From: a virus
Reading direction: 5' to 3' (one strand)
Length of the DNA stretch: 23,348 bases
IMG/VR virus record: IMGVR_UViG_3300046513_000151
Location: 1-23,348 of that record
Of this stretch, positions 3,871-23,329 are shown one piece after another (position 1 is the stretch's first letter; each line of letters opens with the position of its first letter). The notes beneath the pieces are model-generated. The model searched no databases, was not told the DNA's origin, and saw only the letters and a program-made list of their open reading frames with translations. The position numbers were made by a program, and so were the translations under genes.

Positions 3871-4940
3871 TGACGACCATCGAGCAGCTCGATAGCAGTA
3901 TCCGCAACATGGTCATGCTGGAGCGGCTGAAGTCGGGAGAGGCGAAGAAGTTCGGCCCCTTCCTGGTGAAGATCGACCAAAGCATCCGGGAGCGGCTGAG
4001 CGGCGACGAGCTGACCAGCTTCACCCGGGCGCGCCTGGACAAGCTACTGAAGGAAGTCGACACGGTCCTGACTGAAATTCTCGGCCGTTACACCGATCAC
4101 ATGCAGCTCGACCTGATGGATATTGCGCAGTCGCAGGCCAGATTTGAGGCCAAGATACTGACCAATACGCTGCCGGTCGGTATCAGCCTCGATGCGGCCG
4201 TGCCAGCGCTCCAGACACTCAGGACAGCAGCCTTCAAGAACCCGCTCAGCATCAAGGGCAACGGAGGCGGCAAGCTGCTCGACTCGTTCATCAAAGACTG
4301 GTCGAAAGCCGAAATCGAGAAGATCGGCGGGGCGATCCGGCAGGGCTGGTTCGAGGGGCAGACCAACGCCGAGATAGTCCGGCAGATCCGCGGCACCAAG
4401 GCGCTCGCCTACTCCGACGGCATCCTGGCCACGACCGAACGCAATGCCGGCACGGTGGTTCGCACGTCGGTGCAGCATGTCGCCAGCCAGGCGCGCAATG
4501 AGGTAGCCAAGGCGAACGACGAGTTCGTCTCCGGTGTGCAACTGATCGCCACTCTGGACAGCAAGACGACGCCGTTGTGTCGATCGATCGATCAGCAGGT
4601 CTACCCGGTCGTCTCGGGGCCTCGGCCACCGTTCCACCCGAACTGCCGCACCAGCTTCATCCTGCTGACCAAGTTCAGCGCGTTGTTTAGCAAGGGCGCG
4701 ACCCGGGCGAGCATCAACGGCCAGGTGTCGGCGAGCCTCAGTTATTACGAATGGCTCAAGACCCAGCCGATGAGCTTTATCGACTTGGCCATCGGGCCGA
4801 ACCGCGCCAAGCTGCTGATGAATGGCGGTCTCGACGCTGACAAGTTCGCTGCCCTGCAGCTGGGGAAGAACTTCAAGCCGATCACTCTGGACCGAATGCG
4901 CGAGCTTGAGCCGGAAATGTTCAAGCGTGCCGGACTTTAA
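3870..4940 (+). CDS. MuF-like minor head protein
   Basis: This is a minor capsid or head-morphogenesis protein of the Mu gpF / SPP1 gp7 group, which associates with the portal and is packaged in the head. The diagnostic C-terminal motif is present in the 356-residue protein: TLDSKTTPLC (residues 228-237), then a Pro-rich turn and FHPNCRTSF (255-263), with Cys237, His256, Cys259 and Arg260 conserved. The N-terminal 120 residues are helical. It starts in an ATGA overlap with the portal stop. It is followed after 16 bases by the Acb2-like gene, before the scaffold and capsid genes. Confidence 0.92.
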   Translation: MTTIEQLDSSIRNMVMLERLKSGEAKKFGPFLVKIDQSIRERLSGDELTSFTRARLDKLLKEVDTVLTEILGRYTDHMQLDLMDIAQSQARFEAKILTNTLPVGISLDAAVPALQTLRTAAFKNPLSIKGNGGGKLLDSFIKDWSKAEIEKIGGAIRQGWFEGQTNAEIVRQIRGTKALAYSDGILATTERNAGTVVRTSVQHVASQARNEVAKANDEFVSGVQLIATLDSKTTPLCRSIDQQVYPVVSGPRPPFHPNCRTSFILLTKFSALFSKGATRASINGQVSASLSYYEWLKTQPMSFIDLAIGPNRAKLLMNGGLDADKFAALQLGKNFKPITLDRMRELEPEMFKRAGL

Positions 4941-4956
4941 CTCTACGAGGCAAGAC

Positions 4957-5187
4957 ATGGACAACCAGCACAAGAAGATCACCGGTTACCGCGACCTCAA
5001 CCAGTCCGAGATTGACGGATTCATCTCCATCAAGGCGCTGGAGGCTGATGCGGCCGATCTGGTCAAGCAGCTGAAGGCCTTGCCCGACGCGGACCAGCGA
5101 GCCATGGCGCTGGCAGTGACCAACCTGCAACAGGCCTGCATGTGGCTGACCAAGGGCGTTGCCCGATCCCACAACCCGTTCGCCTAA
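4957..5187 (+). CDS. acb2: Acb2/Tad1-like cyclic-nucleotide sponge (anti-CBASS)
   Basis: Acb2-family proteins bind cyclic di- and trinucleotide second messengers and so keep CBASS effectors from being activated in infected cells. The 76-residue product shows the family's helical-hairpin pattern: ITGYRDLNQSEIDGFISIK at residues 8-26, a linker helix, then AVTNLQQACMWLTKGVAR at residues 53-70, close to the C-terminal pattern of Tad1 and Acb2. Tyr11 and Lys26, reported as ligand-binding residues in the studied phage PaMx33 Acb2 (from memory), fall at the same numbers here. The start at 4957 has a GAGG site 7 bases upstream. It lies between the MuF-like and scaffold genes and ends ahead of a terminator hairpin. 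Acb2 is preferred over Tad1 because of the GYRDL start; ligand range is untested. Confidence 0.85.
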   Translation: MDNQHKKITGYRDLNQSEIDGFISIKALEADAADLVKQLKALPDADQRAMALAVTNLQQACMWLTKGVARSHNPFA

Positions 5188-5188
5188 T

Positions 5189-5226
5189 TCGCGACACAAA
5201 ACACCGACGCGCAAAACGTGTCGCGA
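5189..5226. repeat. 9-bp perfect inverted repeat downstream of acb2
   Basis: TCGCGACAC (5189-5197) is the exact reverse complement of GTGTCGCGA (5218-5226), with a 20-base spacer. Each arm contains the palindrome TCGCGA. It starts one base after the acb2 stop and lies ahead of the terminator at 5236. It could be an RNA hairpin that stabilises the upstream message or a protein-binding site. Visible in sequence; role unknown. Confidence 0.6.
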
Positions 5227-5235
5227 CAAATCACC

Positions 5236-5260
5236 AAACCCCGCCAAGTGCGGGGTTTTT
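5236..5260 (+). terminator. Rho-independent terminator between acb2 and scaffold
   Basis: A perfect 9-bp stem, AAACCCCGC (5236-5244) with GCGGGGTTT (5250-5258), closes a 5-base loop and ends in a run of five T. It would reduce transcription from the portal/MuF/acb2 genes into the scaffold and capsid genes unless antitermination acts. Confidence 0.85.
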
Positions 5261-5305
5261 CACATCTGCGGGCTGGGCCTGCACCAAAGTCTCTGGGAGA
5301 CAGCA

Positions 5306-6016
5306 ATGACCTTGAAATTCCAACTGGACACCCTCGAAGGCGTCGACGATTCCGTAAAAGCGCTGTACGTCGAGAAGGACGGCAAATTCGTGCTGGGCAT
5401 CGAAGGCTTGCCGCAACCCGAGGACGTGAGCGGCCTAAAGTCGAAGGTCGAGGAACTGCTGAGCGAGAAGAAAGCGGCCGAGAAGGCTCGTCGCGAAGCT
5501 GAGGACGCAGCCCGCGCCGAGCGCGAAGAGGCGGCCCGCAAGTCCGGCAATGTCGAAGAGCTCGAAAGGTCCTGGTCCGAGAAGTACGCCCGCCGCGAAG
5601 CTGAGCTGAACGGCATGTTGGAAAGCGAGCGCGGCACGCTGAGTACTCAGATCCGTGATCTGACTGTCGGCCGTACCGCTACTGACATCGCATCTGCCCT
5701 GGCAATCCCAGGCAGTGCAGAAGCCCTGTTGCCGCACATCGAGCGCCGCCTGAGCGTCGAGCAGCGCGACGGGATGCCTGTTGTTGTCGTACTCGACAAG
5801 CAGGGCAAGCTCTCAGCGTCAACGCTGGACGAGCTGAAAGCTGAATTCGCAAACAACGCGGCCTTCGCGCCGTTGATCGCGGGTAGCAAGGCATCTGGTG
5901 GCGGGGCTTCAGGTGCTGGCAATGGCGGCGGGGCCGCAAAAGGAAAAATCGGCGGCACCAAAGAGGAGCGACAGGCCGCAATCGCGAGCCGGTTCCCTGA
6001 TCTCCCACAATCGTAA
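5306..6016 (+). CDS. Capsid scaffolding protein (probable)
   Basis: This is the probable internal scaffold that guides capsid assembly and then leaves the prohead. The 236-residue protein has a highly charged region predicted to be coiled coil (about residues 41-120, rich in KAAEKARREAEDAARAERE-type runs), a middle domain (122-190), a Gly/Ala/Ser-rich linker (193-217) and a short charged C-terminal helix (218-236), the kind of tail that contacts coat protein. The open frame extends upstream to 5159, but that part overlaps acb2 and the terminator. ATG 5306 has a GGGAGA site 6 bases upstream. It is directly followed by the major capsid gene. Confidence 0.82.
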   Translation: MTLKFQLDTLEGVDDSVKALYVEKDGKFVLGIEGLPQPEDVSGLKSKVEELLSEKKAAEKARREAEDAARAEREEAARKSGNVEELERSWSEKYARREAELNGMLESERGTLSTQIRDLTVGRTATDIASALAIPGSAEALLPHIERRLSVEQRDGMPVVVVLDKQGKLSASTLDELKAEFANNAAFAPLIAGSKASGGGASGAGNGGGAAKGKIGGTKEERQAAIASRFPDLPQS

Positions 6017-6027
6017 GGAAATAACTC

Positions 6028-6996
6028 ATGTCCCTGTCGCAAATGCAGGTTTTCAACGAATACATCATGCCGGCGACTCTTGAGACGCTGGACCAGTATC
6101 TGGCCGCTTTCAACGCTGCCAGCCGCGGCGCAATCGTGCTGTCTCCGGACGGCTTTACCGGCGACTTCCTCCAAGAGTCGTTCTTTCAGACCCTGGCGGC
6201 AGCCCAGCGCCGCGTGGATCGCTACAGCGCAAACGCCACTGTTGCCGCCACCGACCTGACCGAACTGAAAAACACCTCGGTGAAAGTCGCCGGCGGCTTC
6301 GGTCCGATCCGTTACGAGCCGTCGCAAATGACCTGGCTGGAGCGCCCTACCGCGCAAGGCATCGAAGTAGCCAGCCGTGCGTTCGCTGAAATCCTGCTGA
6401 AGGATCAGCTGAACACGGCGATCGCTGCCTTGGTTGCTGCAATCACCGCCCAAGCCGCGGCGGTCAACGATGTGTCGGCTACCGCAGGCATCACCTACGC
6501 CGGCCTGAACAACGCTCACGCGAAGTTCGGCGACGCGAGCCAGAACCTGGTTACTCAGGTGATGCAGGGCACCAGCTACCACAAGTTGGTCGGCCAGAAC
6601 CTGGCGAATCAGCAGCAGCTGTTCCAGGCGGGCAACGTCCGCGTGGTGGACATCCTCGGCAAGATCTCCGTTGTGACGGATGCCCCGGCGCTGATGCAGG
6701 CCGGCACCCCGAACAAGGAAATTATCCTGTCCCTGGTGCAGGGCGCTGCCCTGGTCCACGACGGCCGCGACATCATCAGCAACGTCCAGACCACCAATGG
6801 TAAGGAGCGTATCGAAACCACGCTCCAAACCGACTACACCTTCGGTCTGGGCCTGAAGGGCTACACCTGGGACACCACCACCGGTGGCAAGTCGCCAACC
6901 GACGCCGAGCTGGCGACCGGTACCAACTGGGACAAGACCGCCACCAGCATCAAGCACACCGCCGGTGTTGCTCTGATCGGTGATGCCTCCAAGTAA
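6028..6996 (+). CDS. Major capsid protein
   Basis: This is the probable main shell protein, 322 residues, encoded right after the scaffold as in most tailed phages. It begins MSLSQMQVFNEYIMPATLET, has a long Ala-rich helical segment (about 110-160, comparable to a spine helix of the HK97 fold) and a C-terminal beta-rich part ending GVALIGDASK. An AAGGAA site lies 8 bases before the ATG. A hairpin with a short T-run follows the stop, often seen after highly expressed coat genes. An HK97-type fold is inferred from family knowledge, not shown. Antisense open frames across this gene are shadows. Confidence 0.9.
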   Translation: MSLSQMQVFNEYIMPATLETLDQYLAAFNAASRGAIVLSPDGFTGDFLQESFFQTLAAAQRRVDRYSANATVAATDLTELKNTSVKVAGGFGPIRYEPSQMTWLERPTAQGIEVASRAFAEILLKDQLNTAIAALVAAITAQAAAVNDVSATAGITYAGLNNAHAKFGDASQNLVTQVMQGTSYHKLVGQNLANQQQLFQAGNVRVVDILGKISVVTDAPALMQAGTPNKEIILSLVQGAALVHDGRDIISNVQTTNGKERIETTLQTDYTFGLGLKGYTWDTTTGGKSPTDAELATGTNWDKTATSIKHTAGVALIGDASK

Positions 6997-7008
6997 CCCT
7001 GACAACCG

Positions 7009-7030
7009 AGCCGGGCCCAGTGCCCGGTTT
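7009..7030 (+). terminator. Weak terminator-like hairpin after capsid gene
   Basis: CCGGGC (7011-7016) pairs with GCCCGG (7022-7027) around a CCAGT loop, followed by only three T. It lies just before the GAGGA ribosome binding site of the next gene. It may be a partial terminator or an mRNA-stabilising hairpin that raises coat-protein yield. Confidence 0.5.
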
Positions 7031-7045
7031 GGCGAGGACATGATT

Positions 7046-7540
7046 ATGAGCAACAAGAACATCTGGTATCTGCCCGGCCCGTTCCACCAGTACCAGGAAG
7101 ACGTGAAGGCGCTGGCCAAGGCGGCCGGCCTGCGCATCGTCGACGCCAACGTGACCGAGAGTCGCGACGGTGAATGCGAGAAACCGCCGAAGGTGAAGCT
7201 GAAGGAAGTGGCGGCTCCCCTGGTGGTAGTCGGTGACGATAAAGCCGTGGGGGAAGAGTTGATCGGCAAGCTGCAAGCCGAAAGCGACGCCATTCGCGTG
7301 CTGGTCGACGGCCTGGAATCTGGCGAGATTTTGAAGCCAGAGGCGGGCGAGCTGGCGATCCGCTTGTTCGATTCCCTCGACCATATCCGCACCAAGGTTG
7401 ACGAACTGGCAGAAAGTCGAGATCAGGTCGCCCAGGAGCGTAACGCCCTGCAGGCAGAGGTCGAGGCACTGAAGAAGGCGGCTAAGCCCAAGCCTGACGC
7501 CAAGCAGTCCACTGATAAGGCGGCCCAGGGCAGCGAGTAA
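7046..7540 (+). CDS. Hypothetical coiled-coil phage protein after capsid
   Basis: This protein of 164 residues has no recognised function. The first 65 residues look globular; residues about 120-150 form a likely coiled coil (DELAESRDQVAQERNALQAE, then VEALKK), followed by a disordered Lys/Ala/Gln tail. ATG 7046 is preferred over an upstream in-frame ATG at 7040 because GAGGA (7034-7038) is 7 bases away rather than one. The frame is open upstream to 6980, but that part overlaps the capsid gene. Its place between capsid and connector genes suggests a minor head or decoration role, which is only inference. Confidence 0.7.
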   Translation: MSNKNIWYLPGPFHQYQEDVKALAKAAGLRIVDANVTESRDGECEKPPKVKLKEVAAPLVVVGDDKAVGEELIGKLQAESDAIRVLVDGLESGEILKPEAGELAIRLFDSLDHIRTKVDELAESRDQVAQERNALQAEVEALKKAAKPKPDAKQSTDKAAQGSE

Positions 7541-7551
7541 CCAGTAATGCA

Positions 7552-7569
7552 GCCCTTCTTCGGAGGGGC
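7552..7569 (+). other. Stable C(UUCG)G hairpin before the DnaT-like adaptor gene
   Basis: GCCCTTC (7552-7558) and GAGGGGC (7563-7569) form a 7-bp stem with one G-T pair, closed by a TTCG tetraloop. No T-run follows, so it is not a normal terminator. It occupies the same position, just before a ribosome binding site (GGAGG, 7577-7581), as the terminators elsewhere in the cluster. Confidence 0.55.
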
Positions 7570-7588
7570 GCACCTCGGAGGGGTAGCC

Positions 7589-8092
7589 GTGTCACTGATC
7601 ATTGAAGATGGCACCGGAAAGCCGGATGCCGACAGCTACGCGAGTGCCGCGGACCTGGTCATGTACGCCGGGAAGTTCGGCGTGACCATCCCGGCGGACG
7701 AGACTGCACAAGAAGCGTTGCTTCGTCGGGCCGCTTTGGCAATGGATGGCAAGACCTGGAAGGGGCGCAAGTCCAGCAGCGAGCAGGCTTTGTCCTGGCC
7801 GCGCAGTGGTGTTGAACTGGATGGTGAGATCAAGCCCGACAACTACCTGCCGTCGCGTATCCAGTATGGGCAGATGGCTCTAGCTGCTGAGATCCATACC
7901 GACGACGTCGACCCGATCGAGAAGCGCAAAGGCGCTGTGACGCTGGAGCGGGTTGAAGGTGTGGTGACGCGCGAGTACGCAACGATCCCTAACTCCAGCG
8001 GCAGATTGTTGCCGGCGGCACCGGATCGGCCCAGCGCCACACAGTTTGCCGACTACCTGCAGCGGCGAGGGTTGTTCGCAATTAGGGCTTGA
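7589..8092 (+). CDS. Head-tail adaptor, DnaT-like family
   Basis: The 167-residue protein matches the pattern of the phage 'DnaT-like' connector proteins, which behave as gp6-like adaptor rings attached to the portal: SLIIEDGTGKPDADSYASA at the N-terminus, then AALAMDGKTWKGRKSSSEQ and LSWPRSGV. The family name refers to a weak similarity; a replication role is unlikely here. The start is taken as GTG 7589, with GGAGG (7577-7581) 7 bases upstream. An in-frame ATG at 7547 would add 14 residues encoded by a hairpin. The next + strand gene is 348 bases away, unusual in this tightly packed cluster; that gap holds a minus-strand gene. Confidence 0.8.
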   Translation: MSLIIEDGTGKPDADSYASAADLVMYAGKFGVTIPADETAQEALLRRAALAMDGKTWKGRKSSSEQALSWPRSGVELDGEIKPDNYLPSRIQYGQMALAAEIHTDDVDPIEKRKGAVTLERVEGVVTREYATIPNSSGRLLPAAPDRPSATQFADYLQRRGLFAIRA

Positions 8093-14801: not shown

Positions 14802-15203
14802 ATGTTCGAGAAATACCTGAACGCTTCCTACGAGGATGGCGGGCGAGGCCCTGCGCGTCTGGATTGCTGGGGCCTGGCTCGACTTGTCCGGCATGAAGTC
14901 TACGACCTGCCCCTGCTACCAAGTTGGGGGCATGTCCGCAACACCATGCCGAAGGCGTTCACCCAGGCGGTGAACGAGGGCGCAGCAGCCATGGAACGCT
15001 GTGAGCCTGAGGTCGGCGCGATCGCCTGCATATGGCGCGGGCGGTTCTGCATTCATGTCGCCGTAATCATCGAGGTCGATGGCCGGCTTCACGGAATGGA
15101 AATGAAGCCGTCAGGCGCGACGATCAAACCGCTGCGCAAATTCCAAGACCAATACCTGACAGTGAGTTATCACCGTGATCGAACTCTATCCGAGCAAACT
15201 TGA
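14802..15203 (+). CDS. NlpC/P60-like tail peptidase (lambda gpK-like)
   Basis: This 133-residue protein is probably a tail-tip cysteine peptidase that cleaves cell-wall peptide during DNA injection. The nucleophile motif is [11 protein letters not shown] with Cys22; the His motif is [12 protein letters not shown] with His85, followed by polar residues. Lambda gpK carries an additional N-terminal metallopeptidase-like domain, absent here, so only the NlpC/P60 part is present. It follows the DUF1833 gene and precedes the gpJ-like tail tip gene, whose start lies 29 bases inside this gene. Confidence 0.83.
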
Positions 15204-18295: not shown

Positions 18296-18772
18296 ATGCT
18301 GACAATGCCTGATGGTATTCCGCTGCCGTTGCGAGACGGTTACGGATTCAAACCGACAAGCCCGATCGTTCGCTCTCGATTCGTAAGCGGTCGATCCAGA
18401 AATCGACGGCGCTACCTGAGTGTGCCGACTGAGGTTTCTGTTTCGTGGCTGTGCAATGCTAAACAGGCACAACTATTTGAGGGATGGTGCAAATGGGGTA
18501 TCGGCTGGGCCGACTGGTTCATATGCCCCATTCGGAGCCCGCTCGGCCTGATGCAAACGCAGGCTCAGTTCACGGATATTTACGACGGACCGACGTTGGT
18601 AGGCGTCAATCTCTGGCGATACACCGCCGTCCTGTCGCTTTTTGAAATGCCGGTTGTCGCCGAGGCCGAGCTGGTTGGGCTGATGTCCGGGATAGACATA
18701 ACCGTCATGAACTCCCAGCTACGAACTCAGTTGCAGCATTGGTACACCGAGTCTTGGCCGGGAGCGACCTAA
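18296..18772 (+). CDS. Minor tail protein downstream of gpJ
   Basis: The 158-residue protein begins MLTMPDGIPLPLRDGYGFKP and contains a basic stretch RSRNRRRYLSVPTEVSVSW, GIGWADWFICPIRSPLG and LVGVNLWRYTAVLSLFEMP. I recall similar proteins next to J-like genes in Pseudomonas prophages, usually annotated only as tail proteins. The beta-rich pattern suggests a small structural protein at the tail tip or fibre base. ATG 18296 has AAGGA about 8 bases upstream, partly inside the J stop region; the open frame extends to 18221 inside J. A terminator follows. Confidence 0.72.
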   Translation: MLTMPDGIPLPLRDGYGFKPTSPIVRSRFVSGRSRNRRRYLSVPTEVSVSWLCNAKQAQLFEGWCKWGIGWADWFICPIRSPLGLMQTQAQFTDIYDGPTLVGVNLWRYTAVLSLFEMPVVAEAELVGLMSGIDITVMNSQLRTQLQHWYTESWPGAT

Positions 18773-18805
18773 CGGCCCGAGCCACCGACCACTTTTCAAT
18801 TCTAT

Positions 18806-18831
18806 AGCCCACCGCTGAGTGGGTTTTTTTT
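18806..18831 (+). terminator. Terminator before tail fibre gene
   Basis: CCCAC (18808-18812) pairs with GTGGG (18819-18823) around CGCTGA, with weaker outer A-T and G-T pairs, followed by a run of eight T. It lies directly before the TGGAG site of the tail fibre gene. Confidence 0.83.
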
Positions 18832-18845
18832 CGCCTGGAGTAAAT

Positions 18846-20369
18846 ATGAGCGGAGCGACTGATCTTGCCCGACTAACGGCAACGATCGATACGGCCAACG
18901 AACTGTTGCTGAGCGATCAAATCAAGATGATGGATGTTGGCAGCGGGGTGATGAGACCTACAAATGCCAAGGTGCTTGCCGACTTGTCGACGCAAATGAG
19001 TGGAGCAATGCTCTATACGACAGTCGCCCTTGGCCTGGCCGGCACGGTATCTGGCGGCTACTTCAGCATTGTCGACTCGGCAGCGGATGGTTACCTAATC
19101 CTGTATCGAAACGATGCAGGGTTGCCGGTGGAGGTCAAGCGATACCCTTCGGCGTCGACAGTCAGCGCACTGGCTGAGCTCCTTTCGGGCACGACCAGCG
19201 AAACTGAATACCTGTCCATCGTGACCGAGGAGGCTGAAAAGGTTGCATCGCTGACGCAATCGCGCTTCACGACCTTGGCTTTTGATATAGCTGCCGATGG
19301 AGGCCCCACCGTGATTGGCGACGAAGAAGGGGGCGCCCTTCTGTTTGCCGATGATAACGGGGTGCGCCTGGGCCCTCTGGAGTTTAAATACACCGACCTG
19401 CCCGGCATCTACGTTGTCTCCGAAGAGGGGGAGATCCTGCAGGACCTTTCCGCCCCCACCCCGGTGGCCGCTTCGGCTGTCGGGCAGGTGGTCCCGTTTG
19501 AGGGGGGAGTACTCTTCCACCCGGTGATTGCCGTGCCCGAACAGGGTGAGGTGTCGATCTACGTGAACAACATACTGTCGCACCGGGAGCGCGCGGCGTC
19601 CGTGGTCGCTGCCCTGGGCAGCATGTCGCTGAATACCTTTTTCGCGGGCGCCTCCGAGGGGCAGGTGCTACGGTTGCAGGCCTCACGTTTTGGGGCAAGT
19701 GCGGCGCTGCATTTGCGCCCGGCGGATAACCCGGACTCGCGCCTGTCGATGGCGCTCAAGATTCTGAAGGTCCCATACCAGTCGCCACCAAAGCCTATCA
19801 ACGTGCTATTGATCGGCGACAGCATTGCCAACCGCCAAGGCGCGCAACTGCTCAAAGCCTACCTGCAAGCGTTGGGCTTCGCGGCCACCATGATCGGGAC
19901 GCTACGCGGCTCGGCGAACCCCGCTGATAGCGATGACTTCACTGGCGAACTCGGTGAGGCGCGTGAAGGTTGGGAAACCGGGGACTACACCAACGCCATC
20001 ACTGATCGATCCTCTCCGGTGGCCGCAGGCAGTGAGGCGGCATACCTGGCCATGCCCAAGAGCACTGCCAAAGAGAAGAACCCGTTCTTGCGTGTTGCCA
20101 CGGGGGGCGACTCTGCCGATATCGTGCGCAATGGCTACGTTTTTGATCCGGCGTTCTACCAGTCGCGGTTTGGCTTGGCGACCCCGGATATTGTCATCAA
20201 CGCCCTGGGCACCAACGACGTTCGGGACCGCACGGCCGAAACCGTCGCCGGGATCGTCTATGACAACGACCTGTTGATGTACAACCAGATGCGCGCCGCT
20301 TGGCCGAATGCACGCATTGTTCGCTCTCTGCCAGGGACGGCGTTCACGGCGGCGCGCAATACGTTATGA
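18846..20369 (+). CDS. Tail fibre with SGNH esterase domain, cut by in-frame TGA
   Basis: This 507-residue product is a probable tail fibre. The N-terminal part (1-115) looks like a fibre attachment region; the C-terminal part from about 315 is an SGNH (GDSL-like) hydrolase that may remove acyl groups from surface polysaccharide. Catalytic block I is LLIGDSIAN (321-329, Ser326) and block III is ALGTNDVRD (453-461, Asn457). The frame stops at TGA 20367-20369, but the same frame stays open to 20627 and encodes the missing end of the domain, including its expected His. The truncated form should therefore be inactive as an esterase. ATG 18846 has TGGAG 5 bases upstream. Confidence 0.82.
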   Translation: MSGATDLARLTATIDTANELLLSDQIKMMDVGSGVMRPTNAKVLADLSTQMSGAMLYTTVALGLAGTVSGGYFSIVDSAADGYLILYRNDAGLPVEVKRYPSASTVSALAELLSGTTSETEYLSIVTEEAEKVASLTQSRFTTLAFDIAADGGPTVIGDEEGGALLFADDNGVRLGPLEFKYTDLPGIYVVSEEGEILQDLSAPTPVAASAVGQVVPFEGGVLFHPVIAVPEQGEVSIYVNNILSHRERAASVVAALGSMSLNTFFAGASEGQVLRLQASRFGASAALHLRPADNPDSRLSMALKILKVPYQSPPKPINVLLIGDSIANRQGAQLLKAYLQALGFAATMIGTLRGSANPADSDDFTGELGEAREGWETGDYTNAITDRSSPVAAGSEAAYLAMPKSTAKEKNPFLRVATGGDSADIVRNGYVFDPAFYQSRFGLATPDIVINALGTNDVRDRTAETVAGIVYDNDLLMYNQMRAAWPNARIVRSLPGTAFTAARNTL

Positions 20370-20627
20370 ACCACCAGTTACACGCCCATGATCCGCGCCA
20401 TGAAAAGCGCGATCGCGACCGCCAATAGCAACAAGATTTATCTGGCCCCGACCTGGGCCTTGGTCAGCTCGGAATCTGGCTATCCGCTTCCCACGGCGAG
20501 CCCGGATTTCGATGGATTTATTCCTGGGAATTTCCTCAATACCATCCACCCCGAAGGCGCTGGACGGCACGGCCTATATGAAGTGCTCGCCACCTACGTG
20601 GCAGCTGCTGCGCTCTCTCTCAACTAA
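20370..20627 (+). pseudogene. C-terminal remainder of the SGNH tail fibre after in-frame TGA
   Basis: These 85 codons continue the tail fibre frame without a shift. They encode TTSYTPMIRAMKSAIATANS, then LAPTWAL and GFIPGNFLNTIHPEGAGRHG, where HPEG carries the expected catalytic His of SGNH block V (His568 if counted through). The residue three before it is Asn, not the usual Asp. An ATG at 20388 exists but has no ribosome binding site, so independent translation is unlikely. Either a nonsense mutation (for example TGG to TGA) or TGA readthrough explains the arrangement. Confidence 0.75.
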
Positions 20628-20646
20628 CAGAATGGAAAAAAATACT

Positions 20647-21396
20647 ATGGGTACTCAAATTACAGCGCGCGGCGTTTCCGGTCCTTGGTACACCAAGGTT
20701 GCACCACCAGTCACTCGCGGTCTTGAAGGGTGGTTCACCCTGGATACAGACGTGCAGCGCTTCGGCTTCAATCGCGCACCGGGCAAGCCAGATGCAACCA
20801 TTGTCGGTGCCCCCTCCGCTTTTGGTGGCTACGGTACGTTCAAGGGGAACGTGAACTACCTGCAAACCCAGATCGCTGATAGTGATGAGTTGACGCTCAT
20901 CGTGGTGGCTCGCTCTAACGCCCCGCTGGTTGCGGGCACAGACGCGGTCATGCTGGTCGGTGCTCACTCAGGCCCGATCCTCACGCCAGGCTACACGGGG
21001 GTAGCATCCGGGGGTAACGTCTTCCTTGACCACCCTACATTGTTCAAGGGTACTGCCACCCGCAACGATGGGACCGGATCAGCCACGACTACCGGCTCTG
21101 TATCCGGCACTGGCACCCCAACGAATGTTTGGGCACTCCGCTCTCTTCGTGCCAAGTCGGGTGCGCTTACGGTACTGACTGACCATACCGCTGGTGTGGT
21201 GGTCACAGGGTCAAACACCAACCAGCGGGTGCTGACCACTAACAAATATCGGATCGGTTCGGCAACCGCTGGCTTCCCGAGCGAGAGCAACATCAGCTTC
21301 GTTGCAATCCATTCCGCACAACTGACGGATTCTGAGCTGGCTTTACAGATCGCTGTAGTGCGCAAGCGTATGGCGCGCTTTGGCATCGTCGTATGA
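20647..21396 (+). CDS. Tail fibre / receptor-binding protein, LamG-like
   Basis: The 249-residue protein follows the SGNH tail fibre gene. Its sequence resembles concanavalin/LamG-like C-terminal domains of phage fibres: EGWFTLDTDVQRFG, ELTLIVVARSN, a Gly/Thr-rich loop near GTATRNDGTGSATTTGSVSG, LRAKSGALTVLTDHTAGVVV, KYRIGSATAG and FVAIHSAQLTDSELALQIA. Such domains often bind sugars, so a role in host recognition is inferred. The start is chosen at 20647, with TGGAAAA upstream; ATG 20632 is also in frame but has no site. Two terminators follow the stop. Confidence 0.72.
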   Translation: MGTQITARGVSGPWYTKVAPPVTRGLEGWFTLDTDVQRFGFNRAPGKPDATIVGAPSAFGGYGTFKGNVNYLQTQIADSDELTLIVVARSNAPLVAGTDAVMLVGAHSGPILTPGYTGVASGGNVFLDHPTLFKGTATRNDGTGSATTTGSVSGTGTPTNVWALRSLRAKSGALTVLTDHTAGVVVTGSNTNQRVLTTNKYRIGSATAGFPSESNISFVAIHSAQLTDSELALQIAVVRKRMARFGIVV

Positions 21397-21419
21397 TCGG
21401 GAACATTCAGAACCAGATA

Positions 21420-21442
21420 TGCCGCCAAATGGCGGTTTTTTT
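21420..21442 (+). terminator. Terminator 1 after tail fibre genes
   Basis: CCGCC (21422-21426) pairs with GGCGG (21431-21435) around AAAT, followed by a run of seven T. It is the first of two tandem hairpins between the fibre and endolysin genes. Confidence 0.85.
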
Positions 21443-21458
21443 GTGCCTGTAACTTGTC

Positions 21459-21483
21459 GGCCCGCTATAGCGGGGGCCTTTTT
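21459..21483 (+). terminator. Terminator 2 before endolysin gene
   Basis: GGCCCGC (21459-21465) pairs with GCGGG (21470-21474) and, past a two-G bulge, CC (21477-21478) around a TATA loop, followed by five T. It lies just before the GGAG site of the endolysin gene. Confidence 0.75.
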
Positions 21484-21499
21484 ACGCCTTGGAGAAACC

Positions 21500-22138
21500 A
21501 TGGCCAGAATCACCCAGCAGCAACTGCTGCAGATCCTCCCGAACGCCGGCCCCGTTGCCGGCGTTTTTGTGTCCGCCCTGAATGACGCAATGGCGCGTTT
21601 CAAGATTGAAAGCCGACAGCGTGTCGCCGCGTTCCTGGCACAAGTCGGTCATGAGTCCGGACAGCTGCGCACGCTTGTGGAAAACCTGAACTACAGCGCC
21701 GAGGGCTTGATCAGGACCTGGCCGAAGCGGTTCAACCTGCTGACAGCCACCGCCGCCGCCCGTAAGCCCGAGCAGATCGCGAACATCGTCTACGCTTCGC
21801 GCCTGGGCAACGGGCCGGCCGTGACGGGTGACGGTTGGCGGTACCGGGGCAGGGGACTGATCCAGGTCACCGGCTGGGTCAACTATCAGGCGTGCGGCTC
21901 AGCCCTGAGCCTGGACCTGCTGACAAAACCGGAACTGCTGGAGCAACCGGCATATGCTGCACTCTCTGCCGCCTGGTACTGGTCGAGCAACGGCCTGAAT
22001 GAATTGGCAGACGCTGGCCAGTTCGAGGCGATCACTCGACGCATCAATGGCGGGCTCAATGGGCAGCCAGAACGATTGAAGTTGTGGGCGAAAGCGTCGG
22101 CGGTGCTATCGGGCGGGACGCATGCCGCTATCCTGTAG
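21500..22138 (+). CDS. Endolysin, GH19 chitinase-like muramidase
   Basis: This 212-residue lysis enzyme cleaves the glycan strands of peptidoglycan. Family 19 features are AAFLAQVGHESGQLRTLVEN (43-62) with the likely catalytic Glu52 and second Glu61, GWRYRGRGLIQVTGWVNYQ (112-130) and a C-terminal AAWYWSSNGLNELAD (157-171). There is no signal peptide, so export needs a holin, which is not seen in this window. ATG 21500 has GGAG 5 bases upstream. A terminator-like hairpin lies inside its first 25 codons. The upstream open frame to 21380 runs through the terminators and is not used. Confidence 0.93.
   Translation: MARITQQQLLQILPNAGPVAGVFVSALNDAMARFKIESRQRVAAFLAQVGHESGQLRTLVENLNYSAEGLIRTWPKRFNLLTATAAARKPEQIANIVYASRLGNGPAVTGDGWRYRGRGLIQVTGWVNYQACGSALSLDLLTKPELLEQPAYAALSAAWYWSSNGLNELADAGQFEAITRRINGGLNGQPERLKLWAKASAVLSGGTHAAIL
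21542..21568 (+). terminator. Terminator-like hairpin inside endolysin gene
   Basis: AACGCCGGC (21542-21550) pairs perfectly with GCCGGCGTT (21557-21565) around CCCGTT and is followed by a T-run to 21568. It starts 42 bases after the endolysin start, so it should terminate untranslated RNA. Translating ribosomes would disrupt it. Structure is seen; effect is inferred. Confidence 0.7.
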
Positions 22139-22164
22139 CCGATCGTTTAAATAAAGGTGGTGGT

Positions 22165-22395
22165 ATGGAAGGCGTAGAGCTGAGCCCAAAGATCGAGCGT
22201 GAAGCCGACAAGCTTCTTGATCAAATCGCCTGGGCGGATTCGATGATTGTTGCGGCGAAAGCTGGCGCACGCGCTGAGGGATTTGTTCTTGGCCTGGAAT
22301 CGGCCCGCGCGTTGAGTGAGGCAACCATTGATCGGCTCTATGTCATCTTCGATTCCGCGACGGAAGAGCGGCTTAGAGCGCTAGCCGCATCTTAG
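22165..22395 (+). CDS. Small hypothetical helical protein after endolysin
   Basis: This 76-residue protein of unknown function is helical and acidic (MEGVELSPKIEREADKLLDQ, then IAWADSMIVAAKAGARAEGF, ending EERLRALAAS). It has no signal peptide or membrane helix, so it is neither a typical holin nor a spanin despite its place after the endolysin. AAAGGTGG lies 5 bases before ATG 22165. Its TAG stop overlaps the TAA stop of the opposing SRAP gene, with no room for a terminator between the two transcription units. Confidence 0.7.
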   Translation: MEGVELSPKIEREADKLLDQIAWADSMIVAAKAGARAEGFVLGLESARALSEATIDRLYVIFDSATEERLRALAAS

Positions 22396-23087
22396 AACAA
22401 ACCGTCTTCCTCGGCTGGCCTGATCAAATCAGGCCCCTGATTGCGCACGTTGCCAATCGCGCGGTCCACCTTGAACCACTCGAACGCCTCGGTCGGTTCG
22501 CCTTGCAGCAGCACCATTTGCTCGGCGCGTTCTTTCGGCGTGGCCGGGTCGAGCCATTCCCGGGCCAGCTCTGGCGATAGCGTCACCGGCCTGCGGTCGT
22601 GGATATCGACCATACCGCCAGCGCTGTCGGCGGTGATGATCACGAAGCCGTCGTGTTCACTGGGTTCATGTTCGGCGTTCGGATATTGGCCGATCGCAGC
22701 GCACAGGATCGGCGACCGGTCCCGCCGGCGGATCAGGTAGGGTTGCTTCTTTGGTCCGCCTTCATCTACCCATTCAAACCAGTTGTTGATGGCGATGATC
22801 GCCCGATGCGGCCAGATAGCGCGAAAGAAGGGGCCGTGTGCGACTTTCTCCACCCTGGCGTTGATCGGTGCTGCGCGGTCCTTAGCCCAATGCGGTCGCC
22901 ATCCCCAGCGCACCATGTCGGCGTGCAGGTATTCGCCTTCCTGGTGAAAGATGGCGAGCTGAGTTGTCGGGGCGGCGTTGTACCGCTCGAAAGGCCGGTC
23001 GCCGGCGCTGTTTACCAGAGGGTTGGGCATGCTGAGTGCCGCCACGAAGTCGTGGATGCCATCGTATTGAGAAAGTCGTCCGCACAT
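22392..23087 (-). CDS. SRAP domain protein (HMCES/YedK family)
   Basis: SRAP proteins form a covalent DNA-protein crosslink with abasic sites in single-stranded DNA through Cys2, protecting them from strand breakage. The 231-residue product starts MCGRLSQY, giving the catalytic Cys2 after Met removal. Other active-site residues are in place: NARVEK (Asn76, Arg78), NNWFEW (Glu105) and DIHDRRPV (His163), matching Cys2/Asn75/Glu105/His160 of E. coli YedK. ATG 23087 has AAGGA 6 bases upstream; an open frame further upstream to 23213 is rejected because the N-terminal Cys must be residue 2. It follows the coiled-coil gene by two bases, so the two form an operon. It is oriented against the late genes. 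Confidence 0.95.
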   Translation of the reverse strand: MCGRLSQYDGIHDFVAALSMPNPLVNSAGDRPFERYNAAPTTQLAIFHQEGEYLHADMVRWGWRPHWAKDRAAPINARVEKVAHGPFFRAIWPHRAIIAINNWFEWVDEGGPKKQPYLIRRRDRSPILCAAIGQYPNAEHEPSEHDGFVIITADSAGGMVDIHDRRPVTLSPELAREWLDPATPKERAEQMVLLQGEPTEAFEWFKVDRAIGNVRNQGPDLIRPAEEDGLF

Positions 23088-23089
23088 TG

Positions 23090-23329
23090 TCAGTCCTTCT
23101 GATTGTCCGCTTGAAGCTCGCGAATGATCCTTTCTTTTTGATCCAGGATCAGCGTCAGGCTTCGGATGTGGAAAAGCTGGTCGGTGGTTTCCGCCTCCAG
23201 GTTCGCCATCCATGCCCGCTTCTTTTGGAGTTCGGTCGACAGCTGGTCGTTCATTTCCACTAGGGTGGAAATATTTTCCTTTGCCGCCTGCAGCTGACGC
23301 TTTAGATCCTGTACGTCTTCCTCGAGCAT
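23090..23329 (-). CDS. Small coiled-coil protein upstream of SRAP gene
   Basis: The 79-residue product is almost entirely coiled coil (heptad pattern in MLEEDVQDLKRQLQAAKENI, STLVEMNDQLSTELQKKR and SLTLILDQKERIIRELQ). I do not recognise its function. Its stop is two bases before the SRAP start, so both are co-transcribed, and a structural or partner role is possible. The ATG at 23329 has no clear ribosome binding site, and the frame is still open at the window edge (19 bases further), so the true start may lie outside the window. Confidence 0.6.
   Translation of the reverse strand: MLEEDVQDLKRQLQAAKENISTLVEMNDQLSTELQKKRAWMANLEAETTDQLFHIRSLTLILDQKERIIRELQADNQKD

Follow-up and report, generated by a model that had tools for sequence, protein, structure and literature searches.

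A premature TGA truncates the gene of a CE2-like SGNH esterase tail fibre in a likely Pseudomonas phage

The stretch of DNA analysed here (the window) comprises the 23,348 nucleotides of the virus record IMGVR_UViG_3300046513_000151. It contains a siphophage-like structural module in which a tail-fibre gene follows the tail-tip J gene and precedes that of the endolysin, and its terminase, portal, capsid, tape measure, and J genes all show full-length matches to their respective families. Concerning the fibre itself, a tail-fibre family is weakly matched by the N-terminal part, and phrog_32336 by the remainder; a search against Pfam yields a weak match to GDSL lipases (Lipase_GDSL_2). The features of the locus are compiled in the table.

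Table. Features of the tail-fibre locus, with positions in the window
Feature	Positions	Strand	Basis or remark
Tail-fibre ORF from ATG up to the premature TGA, 507 aa	18846..20369	+	phrog_32336 (E 5e-53), weak Lipase_GDSL_2
CE2-like module (beta domain and SGNH esterase domain), bridged across the TGA for modelling only	19530..20624	+	model pLDDT 95.8; best PDB matches CE2
Codon of predicted nucleophile Ser326 (IGDSI, block I)	19821..19823	+	invariant
Codon of predicted oxyanion residue Gly351 (block II)	19896..19898	+	invariant
Codon of predicted oxyanion residue Asn457 (GTND, block III)	20214..20216	+	invariant in copies spanning the codon
Premature in-frame TGA at the invariant Trp508 position	20367..20369	+	TGG in L003/L004; Trp in 59/59 spanning copies
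Post-stop remainder of the fibre gene, 85 codons and TAA, end of SGNH domain	20370..20627	+	phrog_32336 positions 529-590
Small hairpin with CGCGC/GCGCG stem, ordinary coding-sequence structure	20389..20415	+	folding
Codon 565, Asn; block V Asp in nearly all relatives	20538..20540	+	Asn only in L003/L033, L004/L034, L035
Codon of predicted catalytic His568, removed by truncation	20547..20549	+	invariant
Next gene, 249 aa, intact; function not assigned by family	20647..21396	+	phrog_4390

According to sequence and translation, the fibre frame runs from an ATG at 18846 to Leu507 and is then interrupted by the TGA. The same frame continues beyond it for 85 sense codons (20370-20624) and is closed by a TAA at 20625-20627, such that the gene would comprise 593 codons with the TGA bridged, the last seventh of which is cut off. 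An earlier interpretation made from the letters alone (the sequence-only reading) had described this continuation, which is borne out, and had taken the downstream codons for the expected end of an esterase domain. Indeed, the residues encoded there share 99% and 91% identity with the C-terminal ends of two intact relatives and therefore do not represent a chance continuation of the frame. The motif with the catalytic His (NTIHPEGAGRHG) is located 3' of the TGA, and the truncated product lacks this residue, as had been stated. A separate gene downstream of the TGA is ruled out, as the 85 codons constitute the C-terminus of the family, and an ATG overlapping the TGA (20366-20368) leads, as judged by eye, into no more than a short stretch out of frame. 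In those parts of the window for which a comparison could be made, no other well-supported premature stop was found.

For the fold of the esterase part, a model was calculated from 49 aligned homologues of the C-terminal module, with the stop bridged (mean pLDDT 95.8). The model matches many SGNH structures, as expected of an alpha/beta/alpha SGNH fold, and in a Foldseek search entries of carbohydrate esterase family 2 (CE2) rank first (E 8e-8 and weaker), followed by many SGNH hydrolases. The solved CE2 enzymes (CtCE2, CjCE2A, Est2A) are the best matches of the module among solved structures, and its beta domain preceding the SGNH domain may correspond to the beta jelly-roll domain of CE2; with TM-scores of only about 0.3-0.4 and identities of 12-15%, however, membership in CE2 is tentative. 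All four characteristic SGNH residues (Ser of block I, Gly of block II, Asn of block III, and His of block V) are invariant among the homologous copies spanning them, whereas the encoded product of 507 aa is devoid of the block V His. The Asp of block V, situated three residues before the His, is replaced by Asn565 in the window and in its relatives L003, L004, and L035, which form a clade; all other relatives spanning this codon possess Asp. This suggests that the esterases of the Asn565 clade may use a Ser-His dyad. Such dyads are described for several CE2 enzymes (PMC2661963), and the missing Asp is thus compatible with activity of the intact copies.

Among phage proteins, the organization is most similar to that of SGNH fibres and tailspikes such as gp63.1 of E. 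coli phage G7C, the receptor-binding proteins of Klebsiella prophages (PMC13123978), and gp41 of Acinetobacter phage Aristophanes (PMC11058221): a C-terminal SGNH esterase domain is carried by a fibre that is encoded close after the tail-tip (J) gene, and the residues of blocks I-III and V are present in the window's family. The window copy differs from them in that it ends upstream of the catalytic His. Among phage records, the module is matched best by the Pectobacterium phages MA11 and MA12, at only 26% identity; a search of phage records at the DNA level with the fibre gene gave no match.

In the model, Trp508 corresponds to residue 280, inside the core helix 274-298. From this residue on, the truncation removes most of the core helix, the last strand of the sheet (303-306), the His568-containing loop, and the final helix. 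Judging from the model and the conserved residues, the product of 507 residues should be catalytically dead and is unlikely to be a working esterase. The most direct consequence to be expected of the truncation is that esterase activity is lost; the change in receptor use that the sequence-only reading had attached to the mutation is conjectural.

Scans of viral and genome contigs yielded about 60 loci with relatives of the fibre. As the sequence-only reading had proposed, the codon was compared among homologous fibres: Trp508 is present in all 59 homologous copies spanning the site (58 loci, some of them near-identical, with identities down to 24%), and His568 in every homologous copy spanning position 568. 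The two closest relatives (L003 and L004, 97% and 86-87% identical) possess TGG at codon 508 and the same C-terminus, and in no relative is a stop found at this codon. Consequently, the TGA is derived, by comparison of these sequences, and private to the window's own lineage. That relatives might end at the same place without downstream homology, a possibility raised together with the proposal, is not the case, since they continue into the tail that is 99% and 91% identical.

Concerning the age of the stop, the changes on the window branch were polarised with L004. The part before the stop has accumulated 33 synonymous and 10 nonsynonymous changes, the part behind it four and one, respectively, a similar ratio. 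The post-stop part offers about 192 nonsynonymous and about 63 synonymous sites, and at most one nonsynonymous change in five would be expected under neutrality with P about 0.015. Because of this scarcity of nonsynonymous changes, the stop appears to be younger than most of the window's branch, or else the tail is still translated; a young stop would be the simpler of the two. Of the options offered by the sequence-only reading, a recent nonsense mutation therefore gains support from the Trp and the downstream sequence kept by the relatives, and from purifying selection on the post-stop part along the window branch.

The matches to genome contigs include three named Pseudomonas strains, and the best matches of the J protein are Pseudomonas phages, which makes Pseudomonas the likely host. 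An integrase was found in six of ten records tested among the relatives and is missing from the window record, which is a fragment; judging from the relatives' integrases, the phage is probably temperate.

The most likely explanation is that the gene of a CE2-like SGNH esterase tail fibre has recently acquired an ordinary nonsense mutation (Trp codon to TGA) and thereby lost its function (probability roughly 0.7). Its main rival is an error of sequencing or assembly, in which case the real phage would possess a sense codon and make a full-length fibre. A single base differs from the intact relatives at the codon, the frame is otherwise intact with constraint up to the tip, and the allele is known from one virus-collection contig, where a consensus error would look identical. 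However, substitution errors are rare in an assembled consensus, and besides that in the relative L055 no premature stop of comparable support is present among the approximately 88,000 codons covered by homology, such that an error seems unlikely, although it deserves more weight than either of the two minor rivals, readthrough and selected truncation. The former of these, the other option of the sequence-only reading, would have tRNA-Trp decode a leaky UGA at a low rate, restore Trp, and yield full-length products for a minority of the fibres, in analogy to the coat gene of Q-beta, with which the fibre gene shares an in-frame UGA and an open frame beyond it. The ancestral residue would be inserted, the downstream frame is intact, and the UGA is followed by A, a context that is leaky in E. 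coli. The stem 24 bases past the TGA lies at the positions first given for it (CGCGC 20394-20398, GCGCG 20407-20411), and one branch-specific synonymous change turns a G-U pair in it into G-C. Nevertheless, L003 folds the same hairpin without having the stop, the 60-nt segment starting at the TGA is equalled or exceeded in folding stability by 83% of the equivalent segments of the gene, and comparison with shuffled sequences depends strongly on the limits chosen (z -2.4 for 94 nt, z 0.25 for 81 nt); neither gene-wide segment folding nor the comparison with L003 revealed a stimulatory structure beyond chance after the TGA. TGA is also the commonest terminator in the window: of the 19 other genes examined, 10 end with it, in three cases as TGA-A (435-956, 7547-8092, 14802-15203). 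No tRNA genes were found in the window, which rules out a suppressor tRNA there, and reassignment of TGA to Trp is ruled out as well, as roughly half of the genes in the window end in TGA and Trp is elsewhere encoded by TGG. Unlike in Q-beta, the stop is not conserved among relatives, which have no stop to conserve, special structure is lacking, and the likely host genus has very low measured readthrough: UGA readthrough amounts to 0.08% in P. putida and 0.04% in P. aeruginosa vs. 12% in E. coli (PMC9481147). Given the ordinary folding, the TGA-A at ordinary gene ends, the lack of a tRNA gene, and these Pseudomonas values, a use of the Q-beta kind is very improbable, the least probable of the explanations considered.

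Selected truncation would mean that loss of the esterase head is adaptive, e.g., on hosts without acetylated glycan, and that stops recur under selection. Here, the relative L055 (46% identical) is of importance: it possesses a premature TAA at another invariant Trp (W486; L055:5309-5311), 22 codons upstream of the window's stop in family numbering, followed by an intact C-terminus. TAA is generally a tight stop, which is a further point against readthrough, and it requires two base changes from TGG. As L055 is placed outside the window's clade in the tree, its truncation arose independently in a separate lineage. In a survey of premature stops among 54 distinct loci, for which a support threshold was applied (rows with 3-5 supports represent gene-boundary or wrong-frame noise), two supported stops were found in 29,891 fibre codons vs. 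none in 58,461 codons of neighbouring genes. This enrichment is, however, not significant (Fisher P 0.11, and 0.34 without the window, which was chosen for its stop). The post-stop segments of both the window and the L055 copy are not decayed, but this is equally expected of short-lived deleterious alleles. That an esterase-bearing fibre can become superfluous is described for Pseudomonas phage DEV: its long fibres contain an esterase-like domain and are required on wild-type P. aeruginosa, but dispensable on O-antigen-free mutants (PMC10925440). Taken together, fibre inactivation appears to recur, judged by these two copies, and recurrent loss under selection is possible only; selected truncation as the explanation of the window's stop is improbable. 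Slightly more doubtful still is the farther-reaching idea that nonsense mutations in invariant Trp codons a short way upstream of the catalytic His represent a repeated, adaptive, and reversible switch-off of deacetylation in temperate phage populations.

Under the preferred reading of an ordinary nonsense allele, a Trp codon would have changed to TGA in the window's lineage, with translation ending after residue 507. Without the rest of the core helix and the elements that follow it, the esterase would be unfolded or catalytically dead, and virions would either lack functional fibre heads or be unable to deacetylate surface polysaccharide. For a short time, such an allele may be maintained in an integrated prophage, or where phages infect hosts without the polysaccharide or its acetyl groups. 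The independent truncation in L055 and the dispensability of the DEV fibres speak for this reading as well. By itself, a broken allele of a fibre gene means little, yet it would offer a naturally occurring loss-of-function variant with which the need for the esterase head during infection could be addressed. It also calls for caution, as an in-frame UGA alone is no basis for assuming readthrough in a phage of a genus in which UGA readthrough is very rare.

Apart from the stop, the window is 93% and 88% identical to the contig IMGVR_UViG_3300047472_000142 at positions 18443-22419 and 4902-7482, respectively, and shows mostly weak or no match to it elsewhere, a pattern pointing to mosaicism of the phage, with exchange of the fibre module. 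A gene matching phrog_1599 (22392-23213, minus strand) contains an MCGR motif, which presumably recalls proteins of the SRAP/YedK type. Among the relatives, the record G008 (94.9 kb) contains two fibre copies of the window's family (L045 and L064) and three integrase matches, and may consist of two adjacent prophages.
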